A DNA stretch of 64,000 nt from Oceanospirillaceae bacterium (GTDB taxonomy: Bacteria; Pseudomonadota; Gammaproteobacteria; Pseudomonadales; Balneatricaceae). The notes under the pieces were generated by a model. It did not search any database. It was not told where the DNA came from and saw only the letters and a program-made list of their open reading frames with translations. The position numbers were made by a program, and so were the translations under genes. Each line of letters starts with the position of its first letter. The stretch's first letter is position 1. The stretch is taken from NCBI GenBank assembly GCA_024640955.1, contig JAHEDZ010000002.1:1-64000 (forward strand), written 5' to 3'. Below, in pieces: positions 21,327 through 53,306 of this stretch.

Positions 21327-21992
21327 CTACTCGATAAAAGTTACAAACTCACTTAAAACCTCACGCTCTGAGCGCAGGCTATTAATATCCGACCCAGTAT
21401 CGGCGTAGCCCACAGCCATACCACAGGCGAGCATCAACTCCTCTGGTGGCTCGATATGTTTAGCGAGTGTCAGATGAAGCCCAGTCCAATAACCCTGCGC
21501 ACAGGTCGCGACGCCACGCTCTTCCAGCAGCAACATCAGCGTCTGGATAAACATCCCCAGATCCATCCACTGCCCTTGATTCATTGAACGGTCGATATAG
21601 AAAAATAGCCCAAGTGGCGCACCAAAGAGCGCTGCGTTCTTGGCGAACTGAGCGTGTCGGCCAGCTTTATCGTCACGTGCTACGCCGATGGTTTTGTAGA
21701 GCGCTTCGCCTACTGCAAAACGCCGGGTTCGGTAGGGCTCTTTCAGCGGCGATGGGTAGACCAGATACTCTGGAGTTTCCCACCCCTGTGTATCGATGCG
21801 TTTTACAGCGTCGGCTTTCAGTGCGCTAAGTCGCTCACCGATGACCGCATAAACCTTCCAGGGTTGAAGATTGCCGTTGGAGGGGGCTCTCGCTGCTAAC
21901 TCCAGAACTTCCTCAAGCAACTGCTGGCTCACCGGCTCTGACGTGAACGCCCGACAGGTGCGGCGGTTCTTGATTGCTTCGGTTAACTCCAT
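21327..21992 (-). CDS. nitroreductase family protein
   Basis: MELTEAIKNRRTCRAFTSEPV...RAPSNGNLQPWKVYAV; internal start preferred over 22046. Confidence 0.88.
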   Translation of the reverse strand: MELTEAIKNRRTCRAFTSEPVSQQLLEEVLELAARAPSNGNLQPWKVYAVIGERLSALKADAVKRIDTQGWETPEYLVYPSPLKEPYRTRRFAVGEALYKTIGVARDDKAGRHAQFAKNAALFGAPLGLFFYIDRSMNQGQWMDLGMFIQTLMLLLEERGVATCAQGYWTGLHLTLAKHIEPPEELMLACGMAVGYADTGSDINSLRSEREVLSEFVTFIE

Positions 21993-34339: not shown

Positions 34340-35602
34340 TCAGAATTTGCGTGACCGCTCGGCGCGGCGTGCCGCTTCTTCAATTTCACGCAGTACCGTC
34401 TGTAATCTGTCACCCGAGCTATCAAGGCTCGGCATTACTAGTTTCGAAGTTGGGGTTGGGGCAGGCGCAATCGCCCCTGGTCGCGTCGGCAGCCGACCAC
34501 CTTCAGGCTCACGACCTTTGCGACTGGACATAGCCGCAGCATTAACAACCAACGCATTAAGATCCATACCGTAAGTCTTTGGCCCACTACTAGCAGCAGC
34601 ACTTGGCGCAACGGGTTGCTGCGCAGGCGTTGGGTGCACCGGTTTAGACTCAACCGGCGTCGCTTGCAACTGCGTTAGCGGCATGGGTGACGGCTCTGGA
34701 GGCGAGTGAGGCAGGGCGTGCTCGGGTGGCCGCGCTCGCTTGCGCTCAAAACTGGCCATCGCCTGTTGAGCAATCCCGGAAATCGATTCGCTGGGCGGCT
34801 TGGGCATAGCCTTAGGTTCAGGCCTATGTTGCGACACAGGCGTAGCCGGTTTTGCTACGCTAGTCGAAGGTGTCGCTAAAGGTTTAGACGACTTCCCACC
34901 GAGATAGGCTGCAGTTACAGCAGGGTCTGATAGCAGATTGGACGCGCTATCCTCATGCGCAATTCGACCGTTCTCAAGCAGATAGCCACGATCCGCGATC
35001 GCCAGTGACTGGCGGGCGTTCTGCTCAACCATCAATATCCCAAGACCAGCCGCTTTGACTTGTTTGAGGCTTTGAAAAAGCTCTTTAGAAAGTAATGGGG
35101 ACAGCCCGAGCGACGGCTCATCTAGTGCCAGAATAGTTGGATTGGACATCATTGCTCGCCCAATCGCCACCATCTGCTGTTCGCCGCCGGACATCGTTCG
35201 AACCGTTTGTTTTCTCCGCTCAGCCAGCTTAGGAAAGAGCGAAAGCACCCGCTCTAGGCTGGCACTTTCTTCATCACGCGCCCGCGCAGAATAACTCCCA
35301 AGCATTAAGTTTTCCTGCACACTTAGGTCCGGAAAAATACCGCGCCCTTCGGGAACTAGCGCCACACCCTCTTCCACAATCAGGTTAGATTTAAGTCCGC
35401 TGAGCTCAGTGCCATCAATACTCACATCACCGCTGACGCTTCCTTCACAAATACCGCAGATCGATTTAAGTAGCGTCGACTTACCTGCACCGTTGGCACC
35501 CAAAATAACGACTATCTCACCGGGGCTAACCCGCAAGTTAACACCCTCCAAGGCTCGGTGCTTGCCGTAGCTCGCTGCTAGACTTCTAACTTCAAGCATC
35601 AT
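34340..35602 (-). CDS. LivF-like ABC transporter ATP-binding protein with long proline-rich C-terminal extension
   Basis: Walker A GANGAGKSTLLKSI, signature TMSGGEQQM, about 180-aa P/A/S-rich tail. Confidence 0.9.
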   Translation of the reverse strand: MMLEVRSLAASYGKHRALEGVNLRVSPGEIVVILGANGAGKSTLLKSICGICEGSVSGDVSIDGTELSGLKSNLIVEEGVALVPEGRGIFPDLSVQENLMLGSYSARARDEESASLERVLSLFPKLAERRKQTVRTMSGGEQQMVAIGRAMMSNPTILALDEPSLGLSPLLSKELFQSLKQVKAAGLGILMVEQNARQSLAIADRGYLLENGRIAHEDSASNLLSDPAVTAAYLGGKSSKPLATPSTSVAKPATPVSQHRPEPKAMPKPPSESISGIAQQAMASFERKRARPPEHALPHSPPEPSPMPLTQLQATPVESKPVHPTPAQQPVAPSAAASSGPKTYGMDLNALVVNAAAMSSRKGREPEGGRLPTRPGAIAPAPTPTSKLVMPSLDSSGDRLQTVLREIEEAARRAERSRKF

Positions 35603-36329
35603 CCTCTCCCAGGTACGCACGTATCACTTCGGGGTCACTCAAAACTTGTTCGGTGGCACCTTCCGCAATTTTCTGCCCAGAGCTCATCACCACACAGCGG
35701 TCACAGAGGGAACGAATAGCATCCATTACGTGCTCGACCAGCACGATAGTGCGCCCCTCATCACGCAACTGTTTAACCAGCGCGATACCCTCCTCCAACT
35801 CAGTTGGATTAAGACCCGCTAACCACTCATCGAGCAGCAGCACTTTGGGGTCTCCCACCAAAACACGAGCAAGCTCAACACGCTTCGTATCGATATAGGT
35901 CAGCTCAGACGGGCGCGCATTCGCTCGCCGATCCAACCCGACCAGTTCAAGCATCTTCATAACCTGACGCTCAGCATCACGCCCCCAGCGACGGCGGTGG
36001 CCAAATACGCCACCAGCCATCACATTCTCCATGACGCTCATAGAGGGGAGCATGCGTACCAACTGGAAGGTCCGCGCAACGCCTCGGCGGGCGATTTTGT
36101 GCGGCGGTAGGTCGCTAATTACCTGACCCCTGAGGGCGATTTCACCCTCGCTTACACTCAACGCGCCCGATATAAGGTTCATTGTGGTCGACTTACCCGA
36201 TCCATTTGGGCCGATCAAACCGAGCACCTCATGCTCCGCCACGTCAAAGTCCAGGTCGTTAACGGCAATCAGACCACCAAAACGCTTGGTCACCCCCTGC
36301 AGAGAGAGCACTGTTCGATGGTCACTCAT
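35592..36329 (-). CDS. LivG-like ABC transporter ATP-binding protein
   Basis: GPNGSGKSTTMNLISG; LELVGLDRRANARPSELTYIDTKRVELARVL. Confidence 0.92.
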   Translation of the reverse strand: MSDHRTVLSLQGVTKRFGGLIAVNDLDFDVAEHEVLGLIGPNGSGKSTTMNLISGALSVSEGEIALRGQVISDLPPHKIARRGVARTFQLVRMLPSMSVMENVMAGGVFGHRRRWGRDAERQVMKMLELVGLDRRANARPSELTYIDTKRVELARVLVGDPKVLLLDEWLAGLNPTELEEGIALVKQLRDEGRTIVLVEHVMDAIRSLCDRCVVMSSGQKIAEGATEQVLSDPEVIRAYLGEDDA

Positions 36330-43209: not shown

Positions 43210-43244
43210 CGTCTGGATACTGGATTAAGTGAGCTCTAGACAAT

Positions 43245-43272
43245 AAAAAACCCGGCCAAGGCCGGGTTTTTC
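43245..43272 (-). terminator. terminator of rplQ copy 1
   Basis: AAAAAACCCGGCCAAGGCCGGGTTTTTC. Confidence 0.85.
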
Positions 43273-43288
43273 TAGTTTCTGCTAAAAC

Positions 43289-43675
43289 TTAGTCTTCAGA
43301 AGACTCTTCAGCAGCTACTGGACGATCAATCAGTTCAACGTATGCCATAGGTGCAGCGTCGCCAGCGCGGTAGCCACACTTCAGGATGCGGATGTAACCG
43401 CCTGGACGATTCGCGTAGCGAGGGCCCAGTTCGTTAAACAGTTTACCGACAGCAGAGTCGCTACGTGTACGGCTGAAAGCCAGACGACGGTTAGCAACTG
43501 AGTCATTTTTCGCCAGAGTAATCAGTGGCTCTGCAACGCGACGGAGTTCTTTAGCTTTTGGCAGTGTAGTCTTGATCACTTCGTGCTCGATCAGAGACAC
43601 AGCCATATTCTTGAACATCGCTTTGCGGTGCGCACTGGTACGATTTAGGTGACGACCAGATTTACGATGACGCAT
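43289..43675 (-). CDS. rplQ: 50S ribosomal protein L17, second (non-operonic) copy
   Basis: [45 protein letters not shown]; 332 bp identical to 52941-53272. Confidence 0.97.
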
Positions 43676-43698
43676 GATATGTTTCCTTTAAAACTTAG

Positions 43699-44877
43699 GG
43701 AAGGTACGATCAAGTCCCCGATTTTCGGATAACTTACGAAATCAGATGCCTTAGCCGTCATTTTGGCTGATTCTGAGCCAAAATTTCCCTGAAATTCGGT
43801 GTCTGGAAGCAGCTTTAGCAGACTCCAGACGGATTTATCCTGCTGTTACGCCCGCAGGAGTTGGCTCACACGAACGATATTTGCCAGCGCAAACAGCATC
43901 GCCAACTTTGAATCGTTTTTCATCAGGCCACGGTAACGAGCCTTAACAAAGCCGAACTGGCACTTGATGATCCGGAACGGATGCTCCACTTTGGCCCGTA
44001 CACTCGCTTTCAAGTATTCAGTGCGTATAGGCGTTTTGTTCTTTCTTGGATGTTTCTTCAGTGCCCTTATCTTTCCGGGGCGCTCAGCGATGTGCCAATC
44101 GGCTGAAACAGATTTGAGTTCTTCTCGCTTCTCGGCACCCCGATAACCTGCATCGGCGAAAATAAACTGCTCGTCGCCATGCAGGAGCAGGCCAGCTTGA
44201 TTGAGGTCATGCTCATTGGCCGCTGTGGTCGTGAAGCTATGGGTGATTCCTGTACGCGCATCAACGCCTATATGCGCCTTCATACCGAAGTGCCACGCAT
44301 TACCTTTCTTGGTCTGGTGCATATCAGGATCACGCTCACCCGATTTGTTCTTGGTCGAGGTAGGCGCTTCGATGATGGTGGCATCCACCAGTGTGCCTTC
44401 TTTTAACAGGACGCCCGCATCGGTCAACCACTGGTTAACTTCCTTGAAGATCTTACGGGCCAACTTCTTGCGTTCCAGAAGGTGGCGAAAGTTCATGATC
44501 GTGGTGTGATCAGGAATCGGCTTATCCAACGAGAGGCCAGCAAAGAGTCGCATTGAGGCAATCTCGTACAGAGCATCTTCCATAGCGGGATCACTCTGGC
44601 TGTACCATTGCTGCATACAGTGAATGCGTAGCATGGTCGATAGCGGATACGGTCTACGACCGTTACCTGCTTTGGGATAATGCGGTTCGATGATGGACTC
44701 CAGGCGTTTCCATGGAATCAGCTTGTCCATGCGACCCAGGAAAATCTCTTTGCGCGTGCGCCGCCGCTTCTGATTGAACTCGCTATCGGCGAAGGTCAGT
44801 TGGTGGTCCATCGGTGATCTCGGCTGGAAGAGGATGCTTTCGATTGTCTCAGGTCTGGGGACTTATTCGCAATTTAC
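43699..44877 (-). mobile_element. IS5-family insertion sequence
   Basis: Transposase plus imperfect TIRs GGAAGGTACGATCAAGTCCCC / GTAAATTGCGAATAAGTCCCC, flanked by TTAG and TTAA. Confidence 0.85.
43846..44811 (-). CDS. IS5 family transposase
   Basis: [34 protein letters not shown]...[43 protein letters not shown] domain [17 protein letters not shown]. Confidence 0.96.
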
Positions 44878-44911
44878 TTAACAAATGGGGTTCATAGCTT
44901 AAAAGTTAGAA

Positions 44912-46153
44912 TTAAAGTGCAAGCTGTTTGAAGTGCTCTTTGCCTTCTCGGGCCTCGACAACAGCGGCAGTCACGATATCAGCAGTTGCAGCACTGAGCG
45001 TCCAACCTAGGTGACCATGCCCTGTGTTGTAGAAGACATTTTGACGGCGCCCAGCTCCTACTTTAGGCATCATATTTGGCATCATTGGACGAAGACCTGC
45101 CCAAGGCACAACACTTTCAGTCGACACTCCAGGAAAGTGATGTTGACACCAATCAACGAGCGGTTTGATGCGGTCAGCACGAATATCTCGGTTGTAGCCG
45201 TTAAACTCGGCGGTACCGGCAATGCGGAATCGATCTATACCTAAACGACTTGTTACTATCTTCGCTTTATCGTCAAGAAGGGAACGGATGGGCGCACTCT
45301 GCTGGCTCAGCTCATCACGCAAATTGACGGTAATCGAGTAGCCTTTAACTGGATAGATGTTGACGCGATCGCCCAACTTAGTGGCTAGCGCTCGGCTGCC
45401 AACCCCCAAACAGACAACAATACCATCGAACTCCAGCTCGCTACCGTTGGCATCTTCCAGCCTTACGACATCCTGCTCAGTTTTAACGTCAACCAGCTCG
45501 GTCTCCATCTGGAAGTTAACACCGTCCTTACGAATAGCCTCTGCCAAACCAAAAGCATACTTATGGATGTCTCCGGTAAAATCGCTAGGCGTCCAAAAAC
45601 CGCCGACAAAGTCACCATGAAGCTGTGGTTCTTTATCGATGATCTCTAAGGGTGATAACTCAAAACGCTCTAACCCACCTTTAGCGAGTAGCTTGTTGAC
45701 GCGACGTGCATGTTCAAAGTCTTTTTTGTCAGAGTAGAAATGTAAAATTCCGCAGTCTGATGAGTCATATTCCACCCCCCAACGATCTGCAAGGGCATGC
45801 ATTTGCGCGCGAGAGGCTATCGCAAGCTCTGTCGTTGCAATTGTATTTCGCTCGTAGTTGGGAATGTTACCCATAAATTCGAGCATCCAACTGATCTTGT
45901 GCCAAGAGGGTTTAGGGTTCACAAGCAAGGGAGCATCAGACTGAAGCATCCATTTAAGACCCTTCAGAATCGTTGACCAAGTATTCCACACCTCTGCATT
46001 CGAAGCGGACAGTTGCCCCCCATTGGCAAAGCTAGTGTCCATTGCAGCGTAGCGTTGACGATCAATAACCGTAACGTTGAAACCCTGTTCGTGTAATTTA
46101 GCGGCAGTCGTAATACCGGTGATACCGGCACCTAAAACAGCAATATTTTGCAT
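44912..46153 (-). CDS. DadA-like FAD-dependent D-amino acid dehydrogenase/oxidase
   Basis: VLGAGITGITTAAKLHEQGFNVTVIDRQRYAAMDTSFANGGQLSASNAEVWN; GHGHLGWTLSAATADIV. Confidence 0.9.
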   Translation of the reverse strand: MQNIAVLGAGITGITTAAKLHEQGFNVTVIDRQRYAAMDTSFANGGQLSASNAEVWNTWSTILKGLKWMLQSDAPLLVNPKPSWHKISWMLEFMGNIPNYERNTIATTELAIASRAQMHALADRWGVEYDSSDCGILHFYSDKKDFEHARRVNKLLAKGGLERFELSPLEIIDKEPQLHGDFVGGFWTPSDFTGDIHKYAFGLAEAIRKDGVNFQMETELVDVKTEQDVVRLEDANGSELEFDGIVVCLGVGSRALATKLGDRVNIYPVKGYSITVNLRDELSQQSAPIRSLLDDKAKIVTSRLGIDRFRIAGTAEFNGYNRDIRADRIKPLVDWCQHHFPGVSTESVVPWAGLRPMMPNMMPKVGAGRRQNVFYNTGHGHLGWTLSAATADIVTAAVVEAREGKEHFKQLAL

Positions 46154-46207
46154 AGGATTGCACTCTTTTTTGCGGACAATAATTGATAAGCAGAACTGCT
46201 TTTATGT

Positions 46208-46410
46208 CCGACTGCCCTCTCCGTCATGGTACCTGAGAGATTCACGCTCGCCGTCCCTTTGACGACTGCGCTTGCTCCTTCGGTGGATCTGAAAGTGCGC
46301 AGATCACTCTTCGGATGTTTTAAAGATCGCCGGTCCTTTTGCCTGAGAGTTTGCGGGGCACGTGCTCCTTCGGCGGTATTTTATGCGCTATAAAATACTC
46401 TCTCCCGGAC
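46208..46410 (-). ncRNA. tandem glycine riboswitch upstream of dadA-like gene
   Basis: Minus strand carries two aptamer-like cores: CGGGAGAGAGU...CCGCCGAAGGAGCACGUGCCCCGCAAACUCUCAGGCAAAAGGACCGG and CACCGAAGGAGCAAGCGC...GAAUCUCUCAGGUACCAUGACGGAGAGGGCAGUC. Confidence 0.92.
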
Positions 46411-46693
46411 GATCCATTGAGATCAAACTATCTCATCGTTTTGTAAAGAACAACCCTATACCAATTTTCCAGACAATTTATGGAACACCGTTTTTGAGGG
46501 GAGTCATCCACGGATTTATTAACGAAAGGAAATTTATAGGAGTTAATTTTTTGAATTAAGAATAGGAATAAAGAGCCTGAGATCCTTGTTTAATTGGGCA
46601 TCCAGCCCGTTTAGTCATTAGATACACCTTAGTGTAAGGGCTATTATTGGTAACCTACTTTTAAGAAATATTAAAAAAACAGAAGCAAAGAGA

Positions 46694-46713
46694 TGACACC
46701 AATTTTTGATCAC
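46694..46713. promoter_or_regulatory. candidate regulator site upstream of dadA riboswitch
   Basis: TGACACCAATTTTTGATCAC; 17/20 identical to 48457-48476. Confidence 0.45.
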
Positions 46714-46786
46714 CTATTTAAAATAAGTCTAACCACGATATAGTCATAAGATCAGCTACTGCAGCTTTAGTTTGACAACTGGCTCA

Positions 46787-47452
46787 CTACTCTTTGAGAT
46801 GAAAGAAGTCACCTAAAGGCTGCCGACTAGACTCTAAACTATTAATAGATGCCTCTTTATCTTTGTAGCCAACAGCCAAACAACAGGCTAACATCCACTC
46901 AGCACTCGCCTCAGTAACTGAAGCGACAGTTTCGTGCAAAAAGCTCCAATAACCTTGAGCGCAACTGCTCAACCCTCTCTCCTCCAGCAACAACATAAGA
47001 CTCTGAATGTACATCCCTAAATCCATCCACTGCCCTGGTCCAAGACGGCGATCTATATAAAAGAATAGACCTAACGGAGCACCAAATAGTTCGGCATTCT
47101 TTGCAAACTGAGCTTGTCGTCCAGCTTTATCTTCACGCGCCACACCAATCGTTTTGTAGAGGGCTTCTCCTACAGCGAAACGGTAAGATCTATAGGGTTC
47201 TGGCATAGGTGAAACATAGACTTGGTACTCTGGTTGCTCAAAACCATCTTGCTGAAGTTTCTGCACAGCCTTGGTTTTTAAAACCTCCAGCGACTCCCCA
47301 CTAAGAGCAATAACACGCCAAGGTTGTAAATTCCCGTTGGATGGAGCGCGATTGGCAAGCTCAACCAGCTCTTCGATTAACGCTTTCGGAACCGGATTTG
47401 GTTTAAAGGCCCTAACGGTTTTTCTGTTAAGCAGTGCTTTTTCTACGGACAT
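46787..47452 (-). CDS. nitroreductase family protein (paralogue of 21327..21992)
   Basis: MSVEKALLNRKTVRAFKPNPV...RAPSNGNLQPWRVIAL; strong similarity to the other copy. Confidence 0.88.
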   Translation of the reverse strand: MSVEKALLNRKTVRAFKPNPVPKALIEELVELANRAPSNGNLQPWRVIALSGESLEVLKTKAVQKLQQDGFEQPEYQVYVSPMPEPYRSYRFAVGEALYKTIGVAREDKAGRQAQFAKNAELFGAPLGLFFYIDRRLGPGQWMDLGMYIQSLMLLLEERGLSSCAQGYWSFLHETVASVTEASAEWMLACCLAVGYKDKEASINSLESSRQPLGDFFHLKE

Positions 47453-47524
47453 AATTGTTCTCATGCTTGAATCCAACTTCATCTAAGAAGAGGTGATTAA
47501 AATAAAATGTATCTAACTAGATCT

Positions 47525-48451
47525 TTACACAATATCAGAATCGCTTAACTCTTTTGAAAAGTCACTGCCTAACAACCTTTGAGCCATAGTCTGAAGATAC
47601 TGTGCTGCAGGGGTTAACGGAACACCTCTTACTTTGACGATACCCAACTGATTTTCTGGAGGCAATTTATCAACAGAGAAGGGCTCTACCCCTGCTCCAG
47701 AAAAGCGATCAGTGATGTATCTCCCAGGCGCATAACCTATTAAGTCGGTTCTTCGCATCATCTCCAGCATCACTTGCGGAGAGGTACACTGAACAACCTC
47801 TTTTGGCCTTGGCAAACCCTCCTCTTCTAACCATTGGAGTAAGGAGCTTGAACTACTACCTAGTGACATATTAAGAACCCAAGAGGCATCCAGTAGCTCA
47901 CGCCAGTCATTAGAGTGTGCAAGAGGATGTCCAGCCCTTCCAGCAACCACTATTTTAACGTTGCATAAGGGTTCGAACACTAACTCAGACGGCATGGACT
48001 CTTTGGATGCAAGTGCAATACCAAAATCCAGGGCCCCTTCAATCAATCCTGGAACAATTGTCGTCAACAAGCCCTCTGTCAGAACCAACTTTGCTTCTGG
48101 CATGCGAGAGTGAAACCCTTTGTAGATATCCGCTAAGATCGTTGCAGCAATAACAGGAGTGACACCAATTGAGACCTTAGCACCTCGTCCACCACCGATC
48201 TGCTGAACCTCATCTTTGGCTCTCTCGATGGTCGCAACAATTAATCTTGCCCGCCTTAAAAGCGCTTCACCTGCAGGGGTGAAAGTAACTCCCCGATAAC
48301 TGCGCTGCAAAAGTTCCACACCTAGACTCTCTTCAAGCTCACGCATCGCCCTAGTCAAAGCACTCTGACTGGTGTTGAGCTCAACAGCTGCACTGCGAAT
48401 AGATCCCATATCCGCAATCGCAACCAATGCACGTATTTGTTGCTGCTTCAT
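47525..48451 (-). CDS. LysR family transcriptional regulator
   Basis: MKQQQIRALVAIADMGSIRSAAVELNTSQSALTRAMRELEESLGVELLQRSYRGVTFTPAGEALL. Confidence 0.95.
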   Translation of the reverse strand: MKQQQIRALVAIADMGSIRSAAVELNTSQSALTRAMRELEESLGVELLQRSYRGVTFTPAGEALLRRARLIVATIERAKDEVQQIGGGRGAKVSIGVTPVIAATILADIYKGFHSRMPEAKLVLTEGLLTTIVPGLIEGALDFGIALASKESMPSELVFEPLCNVKIVVAGRAGHPLAHSNDWRELLDASWVLNMSLGSSSSSLLQWLEEEGLPRPKEVVQCTSPQVMLEMMRRTDLIGYAPGRYITDRFSGAGVEPFSVDKLPPENQLGIVKVRGVPLTPAAQYLQTMAQRLLGSDFSKELSDSDIV

Positions 48452-48456
48452 ATTAG

Positions 48457-48476
48457 TGACACCAAAAATTGATCAC
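48457..48476. promoter_or_regulatory. candidate LysR site in lysR-M20 intergenic region
   Basis: TGACACCAAAAATTGATCAC; matches the motif at 46694. Confidence 0.45.
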
Positions 48477-48549
48477 ATAGCCAAAAAAATCATATAGCTG
48501 AGATCATATAATCATTTTAATCTGTTTGGAAATTACAAGAAGTACTGAT

Positions 48550-49758
48550 ATGAAAAAATTCACCGATACACAGATCAACCTCATGAAGAGTTGGCGCCAC
48601 AGTATTCACTCAAATCCAGAATTAGGTTTTGAGGAGAACGATACGAGTCAATTGGTACAACAACTCTTAACATCATGGAACTATCAAGTCACCACAGGCA
48701 TTGCAGAAACAGGAGTGGTTGCTCAAAAGGTATTTGGTGATGGCAGTGGTCCTAAAATAGGCCTAAGAGCCGATATGGATGCGCTACCGATCCAAGAGAT
48801 GACAGGCTTACCCTACCAGAGCAAAAATAGAGGCAAGATGCACGCCTGTGGGCATGATGGGCATACCTCTATTTTGTTAGGGGCTGCGAAATCGATAGCC
48901 GAAGCGGATACAAGTTCGTTTAATGGCACACTCAACCTTATCTTTCAGCCAGCAGAAGAGGTTGGTGGTGGAGGTGGTGCGCAGCGCATGATCGATGAGG
49001 GCTTGTTCGAACAATTCCCATGCGATGCCATCTTTGCACTCCATAATTACCCTGGCATTCCTGTTGGTCGTGTCGAATTCCGAAGTGGTCCCTTCATGTG
49101 CTCATCAGATCTTGTGAAAATTACCTTTACAGGAAAAGGCGGCCACGGCGGCCTCCCGCAAATGTCGATCGACCCAACATTACCCTTATCGGCAACCGTA
49201 CTTGGTCTACAAACAATTATTGGCCGCAATACCGATCCAATTCACACAGGCGTTATTAGTGTTGGAAAAATTGCAGCCGGCCAAAGCTACAACGTTATTC
49301 CAGAAAGAGCCGAGCTTGAATTAAGTGTTCGCGCACTGCAACCAGAAGTACGTGACACGCTTGAAAGGCGCATAAGACAACTGGTCGATAATCAAGCAAC
49401 CGCATATGACTGTCAGGCACAAATCAGCTACCAATACGGCTACCCTGTGCTGCAAAACAGCGCTCAATATGCAGAGGTAGTGAGAACAGTAGCCGAGCGA
49501 GCATTCGGTATAGAGCTAGTGGATTCAGATGCAGCCCCTCTGACTGGAAGTGAAGACTTTGCTTACATGTTAAACAGCATTCCTGGCTGTTACTTCTTAA
49601 TTGGTAATGGTGATAATGGCCATACCGATGGTAAACGCGTGGGACCGTGCAGCGTACATAACCCGCACTATGATTTCAATGATGATGCTTTATCTGTGGG
49701 TGCTCAAATGTGGGTAGACCTAATAGAGCAGTTTTTCTGCGAAACATCCGTAAAATAG
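48550..49758 (+). CDS. M20 family amidohydrolase (hippurate/N-acyl amino acid hydrolase-like)
   Basis: RHSIHSNPELGFEENDTSQLV, ADMDALPIQEMTGLPYQSKNRGKMHACGHDGHTSILLGAAK, FQPAEEVGGGGGAQRMIDEGLF. Confidence 0.93.
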   Translation: MKKFTDTQINLMKSWRHSIHSNPELGFEENDTSQLVQQLLTSWNYQVTTGIAETGVVAQKVFGDGSGPKIGLRADMDALPIQEMTGLPYQSKNRGKMHACGHDGHTSILLGAAKSIAEADTSSFNGTLNLIFQPAEEVGGGGGAQRMIDEGLFEQFPCDAIFALHNYPGIPVGRVEFRSGPFMCSSDLVKITFTGKGGHGGLPQMSIDPTLPLSATVLGLQTIIGRNTDPIHTGVISVGKIAAGQSYNVIPERAELELSVRALQPEVRDTLERRIRQLVDNQATAYDCQAQISYQYGYPVLQNSAQYAEVVRTVAERAFGIELVDSDAAPLTGSEDFAYMLNSIPGCYFLIGNGDNGHTDGKRVGPCSVHNPHYDFNDDALSVGAQMWVDLIEQFFCETSVK

Positions 49759-49779
49759 ACCTTTATTGAGGATCAAATA

Positions 49780-50811
49780 ATGACTATAAAAACAAATATC
49801 ATGGGCACGCTAACAGCGGCCACAATGATTGGATCTCTATCCTTCAACGCTCAAGCTGAAACGCTCACAATGTCGAATTGGGTTCCACCAGCTCACTTTG
49901 TTAGTGGAATTTTGAAAGACTGGGCTGAAGATGTTAGCGAAGCAACTGAGGGTCGAGTGACTGTCCGCATGCTGCCAAAAGCAGTTGGTAGTCCACCACA
50001 GCATTGGGAGCTAGCTCGCAAAGGGGTCGCTGATATCACTTGGGGAAACTGGACATACGAGCCAGAACGTTTCAAAGCAGTTTGGTTCTCGGAAGTGCCT
50101 TTTATTGGTGACTCAGCTGAAGCTTCATCGCTTGCTTTATGGGATACCTACAAAACTCATCTAGAAGCTAATACAGCGTTCGACGGGGTTAAGGTCCTTG
50201 GTGTAGGGACACTCGGCCCTGGAGTCATTAACCATGGTTCTAAAGATATAGTTACACCGGCAGACCTCGCAAATCAAAAGGTTCGCATGGGCGGACCTAT
50301 TCAAAAAGTACTGATTGAAACAGTGGGTGCGATACCTGTCGCTGCCCCAGCTACTAAAGCCTACGAAATGCTGAATGGTGGTGTCATTGATGCATCACTA
50401 CACCCTATGGAATCAGTTGTTAACTTTCGTCTGGATGGCGTGTTAACCCACCATACTAAGATCCCAGAAGGTTTCTATGATGCTTCGTTCTTCTTGGCTA
50501 TGAATGAGAAAAAATGGAATAAACTTTCTAAAGCTGATAAAGAAGCGATCGAAACTGTTTCAGGTGCGGCATTTGCTAAACTATGGGGTGGAACATTTGA
50601 CGCTCAATCAAAAGCAGCAGAAGAAAAAATGCGCGCCTCTGGTGAGCACAGCTTCAGCGAACCATCTCCAGAGCTGATGGCCTTAATTACAGAAGCTCGC
50701 GAGAAAATCATCAATGAGTGGGCCTCCGATGCTAGTAACTTTGGTATCGACAATCCAATGGAAATTGTCAAATACCATAAAAAACGCTACAACGCTCACG
50801 CTAATAAATAA
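49780..50811 (+). CDS. TRAP transporter substrate-binding protein (DctP family)
   Basis: Signal peptide; MSNWVPPAHFVSGILKDWAEDVSEATEGRVTVRMLPK. Confidence 0.92.
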   Translation: MTIKTNIMGTLTAATMIGSLSFNAQAETLTMSNWVPPAHFVSGILKDWAEDVSEATEGRVTVRMLPKAVGSPPQHWELARKGVADITWGNWTYEPERFKAVWFSEVPFIGDSAEASSLALWDTYKTHLEANTAFDGVKVLGVGTLGPGVINHGSKDIVTPADLANQKVRMGGPIQKVLIETVGAIPVAAPATKAYEMLNGGVIDASLHPMESVVNFRLDGVLTHHTKIPEGFYDASFFLAMNEKKWNKLSKADKEAIETVSGAAFAKLWGGTFDAQSKAAEEKMRASGEHSFSEPSPELMALITEAREKIINEWASDASNFGIDNPMEIVKYHKKRYNAHANK

Positions 50812-50817
50812 CAAAAA

Positions 50818-50840
50818 GGGGCTATCTGTTAGGTAGCCCC
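50818..50840 (+). other. intercistronic stem-loop between dctP- and dctQ-like genes
   Basis: GGGGCTA...TAGCCCC inverted repeat, no long T tract. Confidence 0.65.
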
Positions 50841-50863
50841 TCGCTTTATAGAGGCGGAAGAAC

Positions 50864-51349
50864 ATGAAGCCTATTATAGATAAGACCTTCAAAACCATTG
50901 AGATCATCTTAATGATCTCACTATTCCTAATGGTGGCTCTCACCTTTGCAGATGTATTAGGGCGTCGTCTATTTAATACCCCCATTTACGGTGCACACGA
51001 TTTAACCGAACACTTTATGGCTGTTATTGTATTCACCGGTTTGCCTCTACTCACTGCAGCGAGAGGTCATCTTTGCGTCGACCTATTAGATGGATTCCTA
51101 ATGAAGGACAGTCTGAACTGGTGGCACTTCTTAATTCGCTGCCTTATAGCAGCAGCATTAGGTTTGATTGGTTATCAATTTGTCATTGCGGCCATTGATG
51201 CAACTGAGATTCACGAAGTGAGTCATGAGCTTCTAATTCCACGCAGTTACATGTACTACCTATTTGCTTGCGGCTCATTTACAGCTGGTTTAGCAAGTCT
51301 ATTACCCGCTAGACACCATTCAGATATCACATCCGAGGAACCATTATGA
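50864..51349 (+). CDS. TRAP transporter small permease (DctQ family)
   Basis: LMVALTFADVLGRRLFNTPIYGAHDLTEHFMAVIVFTGLPLL. Confidence 0.9.
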   Translation: MKPIIDKTFKTIEIILMISLFLMVALTFADVLGRRLFNTPIYGAHDLTEHFMAVIVFTGLPLLTAARGHLCVDLLDGFLMKDSLNWWHFLIRCLIAAALGLIGYQFVIAAIDATEIHEVSHELLIPRSYMYYLFACGSFTAGLASLLPARHHSDITSEEPL

Positions 51350-52638
51350 CTCTTGGTTTAATCTGCCTAGGGCTAGTGCTAGTACTGGCATTTTTAAGAG
51401 TGCCTTTGGCCTTCTCTCTTCTAACAGTTAGTTTCTTTGGTATTGCTTGGGATTATGGCTATTCGACGTCAATCACTATGCTCTCCATGACCATATCAGA
51501 CGCTGTGTTCTCATACGATCTAGCCGTGGTACCCCTGTTTATATTGATGGGTAACATCCTATCTAAAACGGGAATAGCGGCAGATTTATTCAGAGCAGCC
51601 AATGCTTATCTAGGACACATTAGAGGTGGATTAGCCCTCTCTACGATGGTGACCTGTGCAGGATTTAGCGCGGTATGCGGTTCGAGTCTTGCAACGGCAG
51701 CCACCATGTCAAAAGTCGCCTACCCCAGCATGAAAAAATACGGATATTCGGATTCACTGGCATCCGCGTCAATAGCAGCTGGTGGCACTCTGGGTATTCT
51801 TATACCGCCATCAATCATTCTAATGATCTATGGCATTCTGACACAGACAAACATTGGGGAACTGTTCATAGCCGGTGTTGTACCGGGATTATTAGGACTA
51901 GCATTTTATATGTTAGCAATATACGTCGTAGCACTCTTCAAGGCAGAACATGCACCACGAGGTGATCGATCAGACGCTAAAGAGAAGGTTGCATCCTTAA
52001 AAGGAGTGTGGCCATTCTTTATGCTGTTTATTCTGATATTTGGAGGCATCTACGCGAAGATATTCACAGCTACAGAAGCAGCGGGCATGGGGGCAGGATT
52101 TGCCTTAATCATAGCCGTTTGGCAAAAGCGGATGACCTGGGCGAAGTTCAAACATATCTTCTTAGATGCATCTTTTACCTCCGTCATGCTCTACTCGGTC
52201 CTATTTGGCGCTATGCTGTTCGCAAAATTTGTATCTTTCTCAGGGCTTGCCGAAGGTATATTGAGTGCAGTTGAGGCTTCAGGTCTGAGTAATTATGAAT
52301 TGATCGCTCTGATCATGATCATATTCCTACTGTTAGGATGTGTAATGGATTCACTAGCCATTATATTGATCTGTGTACCTCTATTCGTCCCAATCGTACT
52401 CGCTAATGGATTCGATCTCATTTGGTTCGGCATCATTGTCGTAGTCGTAACTGAAATAGCCCTAATTACCCCACCGATTGGCATGAACGTATTCGTTCTT
52501 AAGGCGACACTGCCCAATGTATCATTTGCAGCGATTTTCAAAGGGCTGGTTCCATTCATTGGTGTCGATTTACTAAGGCTTATTCTGTTAATAGCAGTAC
52601 CAAGCCTATCACTGGGATTAGTAGAAATAATGCGATGA
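51346..52638 (+). CDS. TRAP transporter large permease (DctM family)
   Basis: VPLFILMGNILSKTGIAADLF, SAVCGSSLATAATMSKVAYPSM; overlaps dctQ stop. Confidence 0.94.
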   Translation: MTLGLICLGLVLVLAFLRVPLAFSLLTVSFFGIAWDYGYSTSITMLSMTISDAVFSYDLAVVPLFILMGNILSKTGIAADLFRAANAYLGHIRGGLALSTMVTCAGFSAVCGSSLATAATMSKVAYPSMKKYGYSDSLASASIAAGGTLGILIPPSIILMIYGILTQTNIGELFIAGVVPGLLGLAFYMLAIYVVALFKAEHAPRGDRSDAKEKVASLKGVWPFFMLFILIFGGIYAKIFTATEAAGMGAGFALIIAVWQKRMTWAKFKHIFLDASFTSVMLYSVLFGAMLFAKFVSFSGLAEGILSAVEASGLSNYELIALIMIIFLLLGCVMDSLAIILICVPLFVPIVLANGFDLIWFGIIVVVVTEIALITPPIGMNVFVLKATLPNVSFAAIFKGLVPFIGVDLLRLILLIAVPSLSLGLVEIMR

Positions 52639-52662
52639 TACGAAATTAAGTGTCATAATTTA

Positions 52663-52703
52663 TAAGGGGCGCTTTACGATTGGTAACCGTAAAGTGCCCT
52701 TTT
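52663..52703 (+). terminator. terminator after island TRAP operon
   Basis: GGGGCGCTTTACG...CGTAAAGTGCCCTTTTT. Confidence 0.8.
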
Positions 52704-52845
52704 TATTAGCCTTTGTAATGAATTTAAGACTACATAAGCGCAGGTAAAACTTAATGAACTGGAAATTTAAAAGACAGCGTTCAATCAGACCAAAGCTTGC
52801 AGAGACGCAATTTAAAAAAAAGCTAGTGCATGAGGACGCTAGACA

Positions 52846-52874
52846 CAAAAAACCCGGCAGAAGCCGGGTTTTTT
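52846..52874 (-). terminator. terminator of rplQ copy 2
   Basis: AAAAAACCCGGCAGAAGCCGGGTTTTTT. Confidence 0.88.
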
Positions 52875-52891
52875 ATGGATCAACTCAGTAC

Positions 52892-53272
52892 TTAGTCTTC
52901 AGAAGACTCAGCAACTGGACGATCAACTAGTTCTACGTAAGCCATAGGTGCAGCGTCGCCAGCGCGGTAGCCACACTTCAGGATGCGGATGTAACCGCCT
53001 GGACGATTCGCGTAGCGAGGGCCCAGTTCGTTAAACAGTTTACCGACAGCAGAGTCGCTACGTGTACGGCTGAAAGCCAGACGACGGTTAGCAACTGAGT
53101 CATTTTTCGCCAGAGTAATCAGTGGCTCTGCAACGCGACGGAGTTCTTTAGCTTTTGGCAGTGTAGTCTTGATCACTTCGTGCTCGATCAGAGACACAGC
53201 CATATTCTTGAACATCGCTTTGCGGTGCGCACTGGTACGATTTAGGTGACGACCAGATTTACGATGACGCAT
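52892..53272 (-). CDS. rplQ: 50S ribosomal protein L17 (alpha operon copy)
   Basis: Downstream of rpoA in standard order; 126 aa. Confidence 0.98.
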
Positions 53273-53306
53273 CTTATGTATCCTTTAAAACTTAGCTTAA
53301 GCCAAC

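Follow-up and report, generated by a model that had tools for sequence, protein, structure and literature searches.

A tandem glycine riboswitch linked to a DadA-like flavoenzyme gene on a genomic island of an Oceanospirillaceae bacterium

The island and the dadA leader

The window, by which we mean the whole 64,000-nucleotide stretch of DNA analysed here, holds a dadA-like gene with two glycine aptamers in its leader, together with the following neighbours:

43289..53272, no strand assigned: island bounded by two direct rplQ copies (43289-43675 and 52892-53272)
43846-44811: IS5-type transposase gene, inside the island and adjoining dadA
44912..46153, minus strand: dadA-like gene, FAD-dependent DAO family (Pfam DAO), PRK12409/NF009074
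46215..46318, minus strand: glycine aptamer 2, found with covariance model R1 (81.6 bits, E 2.3e-17)
46322..46417, minus strand: glycine aptamer 1, full-length match to RF00504 (57.6 bits against a gathering score of 32; E 2.9e-9 for the whole window)
48526..49758, plus strand: M20 amidohydrolase gene (TIGR01891, 348 bits), 52% identical to the M20 gene beside dadA in locus L090
49780..52638, plus strand: TRAP transporter genes DctP, DctQ and DctM (Pfam)

A reading of the sequence alone had placed the dadA-like gene inside an island, and the gene was indeed found in an acquired block of low GC content, mostly 0.43-0.49 from about 45 to 53 kb as against about 0.50-0.54 outside. The repeat bounding the island comprises rplQ and its terminator (464 bp, 94% identical; 43236-43698 and 52839-53295), and the duplicates look like the outcome either of acquisition at rplQ along with a donor copy or of duplication. 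The 9.1 kb of island between the rplQ (ribosomal protein L17) copies is flanked by the alpha operon and, at its other end, by uvrA. An alpha operon ribosome binding site (RF00140, 55707-55792, minus strand, 44.1 bits) lies upstream of the ribosomal protein genes and is the expected S4 autoregulation element. A nitroreductase gene of the island (46839-47233) is 70% identical at the DNA level, across 402 bp, to positions 21379-21773 of the window.

Both aptamer cores quoted in the sequence-only reading were confirmed, on the minus strand ahead of the dadA-like gene. The RF00504 covariance scan that it had proposed recovered aptamer 1, consisting of P1 (GAUCGUCCGG/CCGGCGAUC), P2, and P3 with CCGAAGGAGC and CUCUCAGGCAAAAGGACC, but left aptamer 2 below the Rfam threshold, with no match at E <= 1 even when the search space was set to 401 bases. 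Model R1 was built from 37 aligned homologous second aptamers, with the window and its congener excluded, and matched the two dadA aptamers and nothing else in the window. Aptamer 2 has a P1 of UCCG/CGGA, GAAGAG in place of GGAGAG at J1/2, and the elements CCGAAGGAGCAAGC and UCUCUCAGGU. The second aptamer directly follows the first, which is the tandem form of RF00504 (aptamer 2 being assigned by R1, since it falls below threshold with Rfam alone), and the element occupies approximately 46417 to 46215, which nearly coincides with the 46208-46410 originally proposed. Thermodynamic folding by itself was uninformative (z -1.1); a chance match was excluded by the covariance scores and by conservation of the aptamer core among homologues. 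The leader is thus a tandem glycine riboswitch of the known class RF00504, as the two cores had suggested, and is predicted to bind glycine.

Whether both aptamers take part may be asked, because aptamer 2 falls below the Rfam threshold and carries GAAGAG where GGAGAG is canonical, and because a related alphaproteobacterial clade of dadA leaders retains a single core. Aptamer 1 might then bind glycine by itself, with aptamer 2 a structural ghost comparable to the 3′ ghost aptamer of type-1 singlet riboswitches (PMC6944388), which the window resembles in that its aptamer 1 is the better conserved of the two. We consider this unlikely. The window, unlike the singlets, keeps a full second core, and CCGAAGGAGCAAGC, CUCUCAGGU and the GAAGAG variant are kept in dozens of diverged leaders, a pattern unlike decay.

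The single RF00504 match of the window was also the only one in the entire 2.59 Mb genome, namely aptamer 1 of the dadA leader. The gcvP/gcvH and gcvT gene assignments were confirmed, as was that of the XRE-cupin gene (HTH_3 and Cupin_2) lying between gcvH and gcvT, whose product may regulate gcv as the sequence-only reading proposed. These gcv genes carry no glycine aptamer according to the RF00504 scan of the whole genome and the R1 scan of the window, so the original observation that no such element precedes the resident gcv genes holds.

Linkage and spread of the riboswitch-gene pair

RF00504 was found near dadA in 59 of the 60 homologous loci scanned with Rfam, the single exception being a contig end at which the sequence starts inside the gene. 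Of 113 alpha-, beta- and gammaproteobacterial homologues whose upstream DNA was intact, 110 had the aptamer core; all loci compared are those of the nearest homologues of the window protein, and remoter members of the family may differ. Among 57 related genomes sampled, dadA occurred in six and RF00504 in nine, and all six were within the nine. Since the aptamer is nearly universal beside dadA homologues, the riboswitch is normal equipment of the gene. The proposal that glycine control came about through import of the gene does not stand: linkage, the tree and the block shared with the congener (below) make it the usual state of the gene family, moving with the gene. Because sensor and gene occur together in nearly all close relatives across Proteobacteria, the enzyme probably degrades glycine.

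No report of the riboswitch-dadA pairing was found in searchable open-access full texts; it may already be listed in the supplementary tables of regulon surveys. What is new to us is the near-universal, co-mobile pairing with PRK12409-type genes and the possible switch of masking strand described below. Two further loci (L014 and L015, genomes G010 and G024), from hosts in the same family as the window organism that have no PRK12409-type dadA, carry tandem glycine riboswitches upstream of what appears by eye to be a TRIC/UPF0126-type membrane protein gene.

In a maximum-likelihood tree, the window DadA and that of the congener (90% identical) join two Oceanisphaera sequences (Aeromonadaceae) and next the alphaproteobacterial Rhodobacterales, the set that holds all of these having support of 97/93. 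DadA of the window organism's own family is placed elsewhere, with Nitrincola. The block held in common with the congener runs from 46456 to 44910 at 82% DNA identity and comprises the riboswitch and the gene only, with different flanks. Given the tree and this exact block, the riboswitch-gene unit looks horizontally mobile, and its acquisition by the window organism from outside its own family is the best explanation of these sequence comparisons. It would illustrate clearly how a sensor and the gene behind it can pass jointly from one bacterial class to another.

The expression platform

The elements that may connect the aptamers to the start codon are as follows:

46356..46360, minus strand: UGCCC, part of P3b in aptamer 1 and 5′ arm of the P5 pseudoknot, complementary to GGGCA
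46292..46298, minus strand: GCACUUU, the P2 loop of aptamer 2, with complementarity to the Shine-Dalgarno region
46220..46234, minus strand: J3/1 of aptamer 2 with its P1 3′ strand, complementary to the Shine-Dalgarno in most relatives
46213..46217, minus strand: 3′ arm of the P5 pseudoknot, GGGCA directly after aptamer 2
46174..46209, minus strand: bridging hairpin from aptamer 2 to the Shine-Dalgarno, GGACA/UGUCC (GGACUU/AAGUCC in the congener), from folding and comparison
46160..46168, minus strand: Shine-Dalgarno region, AAAGAGUGC, with 6 nt between it and the AUG; predicted partner of the P2 loop

Pairing of the J3/1-region strand of aptamer 2 with the final 27 bases ahead of the start codon was assessed in a set of 43 leaders, which either shared under 80% identity or had been parsed by hand. 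The strand paired with its own Shine-Dalgarno region at -10.4 kcal/mol as against -8.2 kcal/mol for mismatched leaders (p 5e-5), and pairing with the leader's own tail beat shuffled tails (Fisher 7e-16 over the 43 leaders). The reversed-strand and shifted-region controls were null. All five J3/1 pairs showed changes on both sides in 29 beta- and gammaproteobacterial leaders, and when the J3/1 and P2-loop helices were taken together, 0 of 500 shuffles matched the covariation or the percentage paired (MAFFT alignment of these 29 leaders). The controls used here leave some effect of relatedness. The 5′ strand of P1, tried as a Shine-Dalgarno partner, gave no signal above mismatched partners.

The P5 pairing was computable in 39 of 39 leaders with aptamer 1 parsed (of 40 non-redundant leaders), the window included. 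The P5 pseudoknot is described as common among ON types and missing from OFF types, and in N. gonorrhoeae gcvT, a translational ON switch, mutation has shown that a J3/1-type pairing of this kind constitutes the OFF state (PMC13104608). Scanning of the leader on the correct strand revealed no terminator-like hairpin or intrinsic terminator and no recognisable sigma-70 promoter. From J3/1 covariation like that of N. gonorrhoeae gcvT, the P5 pairing and the lack of a terminator, we infer a translational ON switch, and by analogy ON would also be the polarity in the window host. The leaders of L032, L033, L044 and related Rhodobacterales loci consist of one glycine aptamer and a ghost, and in these the Shine-Dalgarno stretch GUCGCGGGAGG has its complement in CCCGCGAC, just ahead of the P1 3′ strand of the ghost.

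In the window itself, J3/1 pairing with the Shine-Dalgarno is weak (p 0.46), and the platform there therefore rests on the pairing of the P2 loop. The loop bases GCACU (46298-46294) would form a perfect 5 bp helix with AGUGC of the Shine-Dalgarno region (46164-46160; p 0.003 against a shuffled tail). In the congener and in the Oceanisphaera locus L023 the pairing extends to 7 bp with one compensatory change (GCGCACU/AGUGCGC and GUGCACU/AGUGCAC), and in other beta/gamma leaders CGUC of the P2 loop faces GACG immediately before the Shine-Dalgarno. Across 20 non-redundant beta/gamma leaders, including the window's lineage, the P2-loop pairing was supported against mismatched partners (p 4e-4; Fisher 3e-5). 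Covariation of the P2-loop helix alone is moderate: of 500 shuffles, 15 attained its best measure and 103 its covariation score. The four-base core of this helix hardly varies. No signal for this pairing was seen in GGAGAG-type leaders. Complementarity of this kind makes a contact between P2 loop and Shine-Dalgarno likely in the window's lineage, and the leader is a candidate example of a riboswitch in which the aptamers were retained while masking of the ribosome site passed to another strand.

The arrangement resembles the RF00504 riboswitches of gcvT operons (Bacillus subtilis, Neisseria gonorrhoeae) in its two aptamers and P5 pseudoknot, and in the window's relatives the J3/1-region strand of aptamer 2 is predicted to mask the ribosome site, as has been shown for N. 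gonorrhoeae gcvT (PMC13104608). It differs in that the gene controlled in the window encodes a DAO-family flavoenzyme and not glycine cleavage proteins, in the GAAGAG of aptamer 2, and in that, within the window's lineage, the P2 loop matches the Shine-Dalgarno better than J3/1 does.

An OFF switch, or a riboswitch inert in its host since transfer, would account for the poor pairing of J3/1 with the Shine-Dalgarno in the window; moreover, the P2 loop belongs to the folded aptamer, so that its pairing is possible in the bound state. This seems quite improbable to us, as the P5 pseudoknot is retained, the J3/1 pairing of the relatives resembles that of the tested ON switch of Neisseria gcvT (PMC13104608), and the block conserved at 82% with the congener is exactly the functional one, leader plus gene. 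As an ON switch, the leader would operate as follows. In the absence of glycine, sequences of aptamer 2, J3/1 in most relatives and more likely the P2 loop in the window's lineage, would base-pair with the Shine-Dalgarno and keep translation low. Glycine would be bound by aptamer 1 first, whereupon aptamer 2 would fold, the ribosome site would be freed and the gene would be turned on.

The enzyme, its neighbours and glycine as substrate

The dadA-like product scored 674 bits against NF009074/PRK12409, for which the cut-off is 494, and this family bears the NCBIfam name D-amino acid dehydrogenase. The second-best NCBIfam model, PRK00711, which represents DadA and is likewise named D-amino acid dehydrogenase, gave 330 bits, below its cut-off of 383; the window protein shares the DAO family with DadA but belongs to PRK12409. 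The score against glycine oxidase ThiO (TIGR02352) was 136 bits, below the curated cut-off of 251. The relatives of the product found in the PDB by sequence were glycine oxidases only. An AlphaFold2 model (mean pLDDT 82) matched glycine oxidases best among PDB folds (4ysh, E 1.8e-24, 19% identity, TM-score 0.74), followed by sarcosine oxidases and, lower, a D-arginine dehydrogenase. Set beside glycine oxidase ThiO/GO (PDB 4ysh, 7cyx, 1ryi), the window protein has the same fold and keeps the Arg of the conserved WAGLRP motif. Identity is about 19%, and GHGHLGWT stands in place of the GHYRNGI of GO. The predicted fold agrees with glycine as the substrate, with which it is compatible, although it is no proof. 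A literature search for activity on glycine returned nothing relevant.

The genes around dadA in relatives point to a source of glycine. At Rhodobacterales loci with singlet-type leaders, a MarR-type gene, an M20 amidohydrolase gene and, in most of them, a TRAP DctP gene stand beside dadA. Neighbour analysis placed the M20 family near dadA in 17 loci; in four of these the large subunit gene of benzoate 1,2-dioxygenase (benA) follows (801 bits in the one scored, above cut-off), accompanied in one of the four by muconate cycloisomerase (catB). The M20 of betaproteobacterial dadA loci is about 50% identical to that of the window, and the window DctP is 55-63% identical to the DctP of Rhodobacterales riboswitch-dadA clusters. 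These clusters suggest import and cleavage of an N-acylglycine such as hippurate, from which the glycine released would induce the oxidase; a literature search for hippurate clusters found nothing relevant. In the window's genome no benA scored above the curated cut-off (best 106 bits) and the congener's M20 gene stands at a distance from dadA, so the hippurate reading does not transfer directly to the window organism. A hippurate pathway in the window's own genome was rejected on the benA score and is kept solely as a clue from relatives.

The linkage, the N-acylglycine-type clusters of relatives and the glycine oxidase folds are best read as pointing to glycine, either as substrate or as pathway signal, and comparison with homologues makes glycine the likely substrate of the window enzyme. 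Most likely it would deaminate glycine to glyoxylate and ammonia, and the glyoxylate could enter central metabolism via malate synthase G, which is present in the window's genome. Taken jointly, we put at about 0.6 the probability that an ON-type tandem glycine riboswitch governs translation of a flavin-dependent amino acid dehydrogenase that deaminates glycine, the two forming a mobile unit.

The family names of both PRK12409 and PRK00711 would suit a product that is a true D-amino acid dehydrogenase (acting on D-alanine, D-proline or the like), for which glycine is a mere signal, for example because high glycine disturbs the use of D-alanine in the cell wall. We regard this as rather unlikely in view of the nearly universal linkage of a glycine sensor in the family, of relatives' clusters that would release glycine and of the glycine oxidases that are nearest among solved structures to the modelled protein.

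Extending glycine deamination beyond the window is tentative. PRK12409-type proteins may be widespread glycine dehydrogenases misnamed D-amino acid dehydrogenases that have spread between classes as a riboswitch-gene unit, with the platform re-invented in the window's lineage by the P2 loop replacing J3/1. If linkage reflects function, a common automatic annotation, "D-amino acid dehydrogenase", mislabels a large and widespread group of genes, and marine and soil Proteobacteria gain a second, riboswitch-controlled route for glycine beside the glycine cleavage system.

Elsewhere in the window, the gene at 34340-35620 (minus strand) encodes a LivF-like ABC ATPase of 426 aa, of which Pfam and the best NCBIfam model span only the first ~240 residues.
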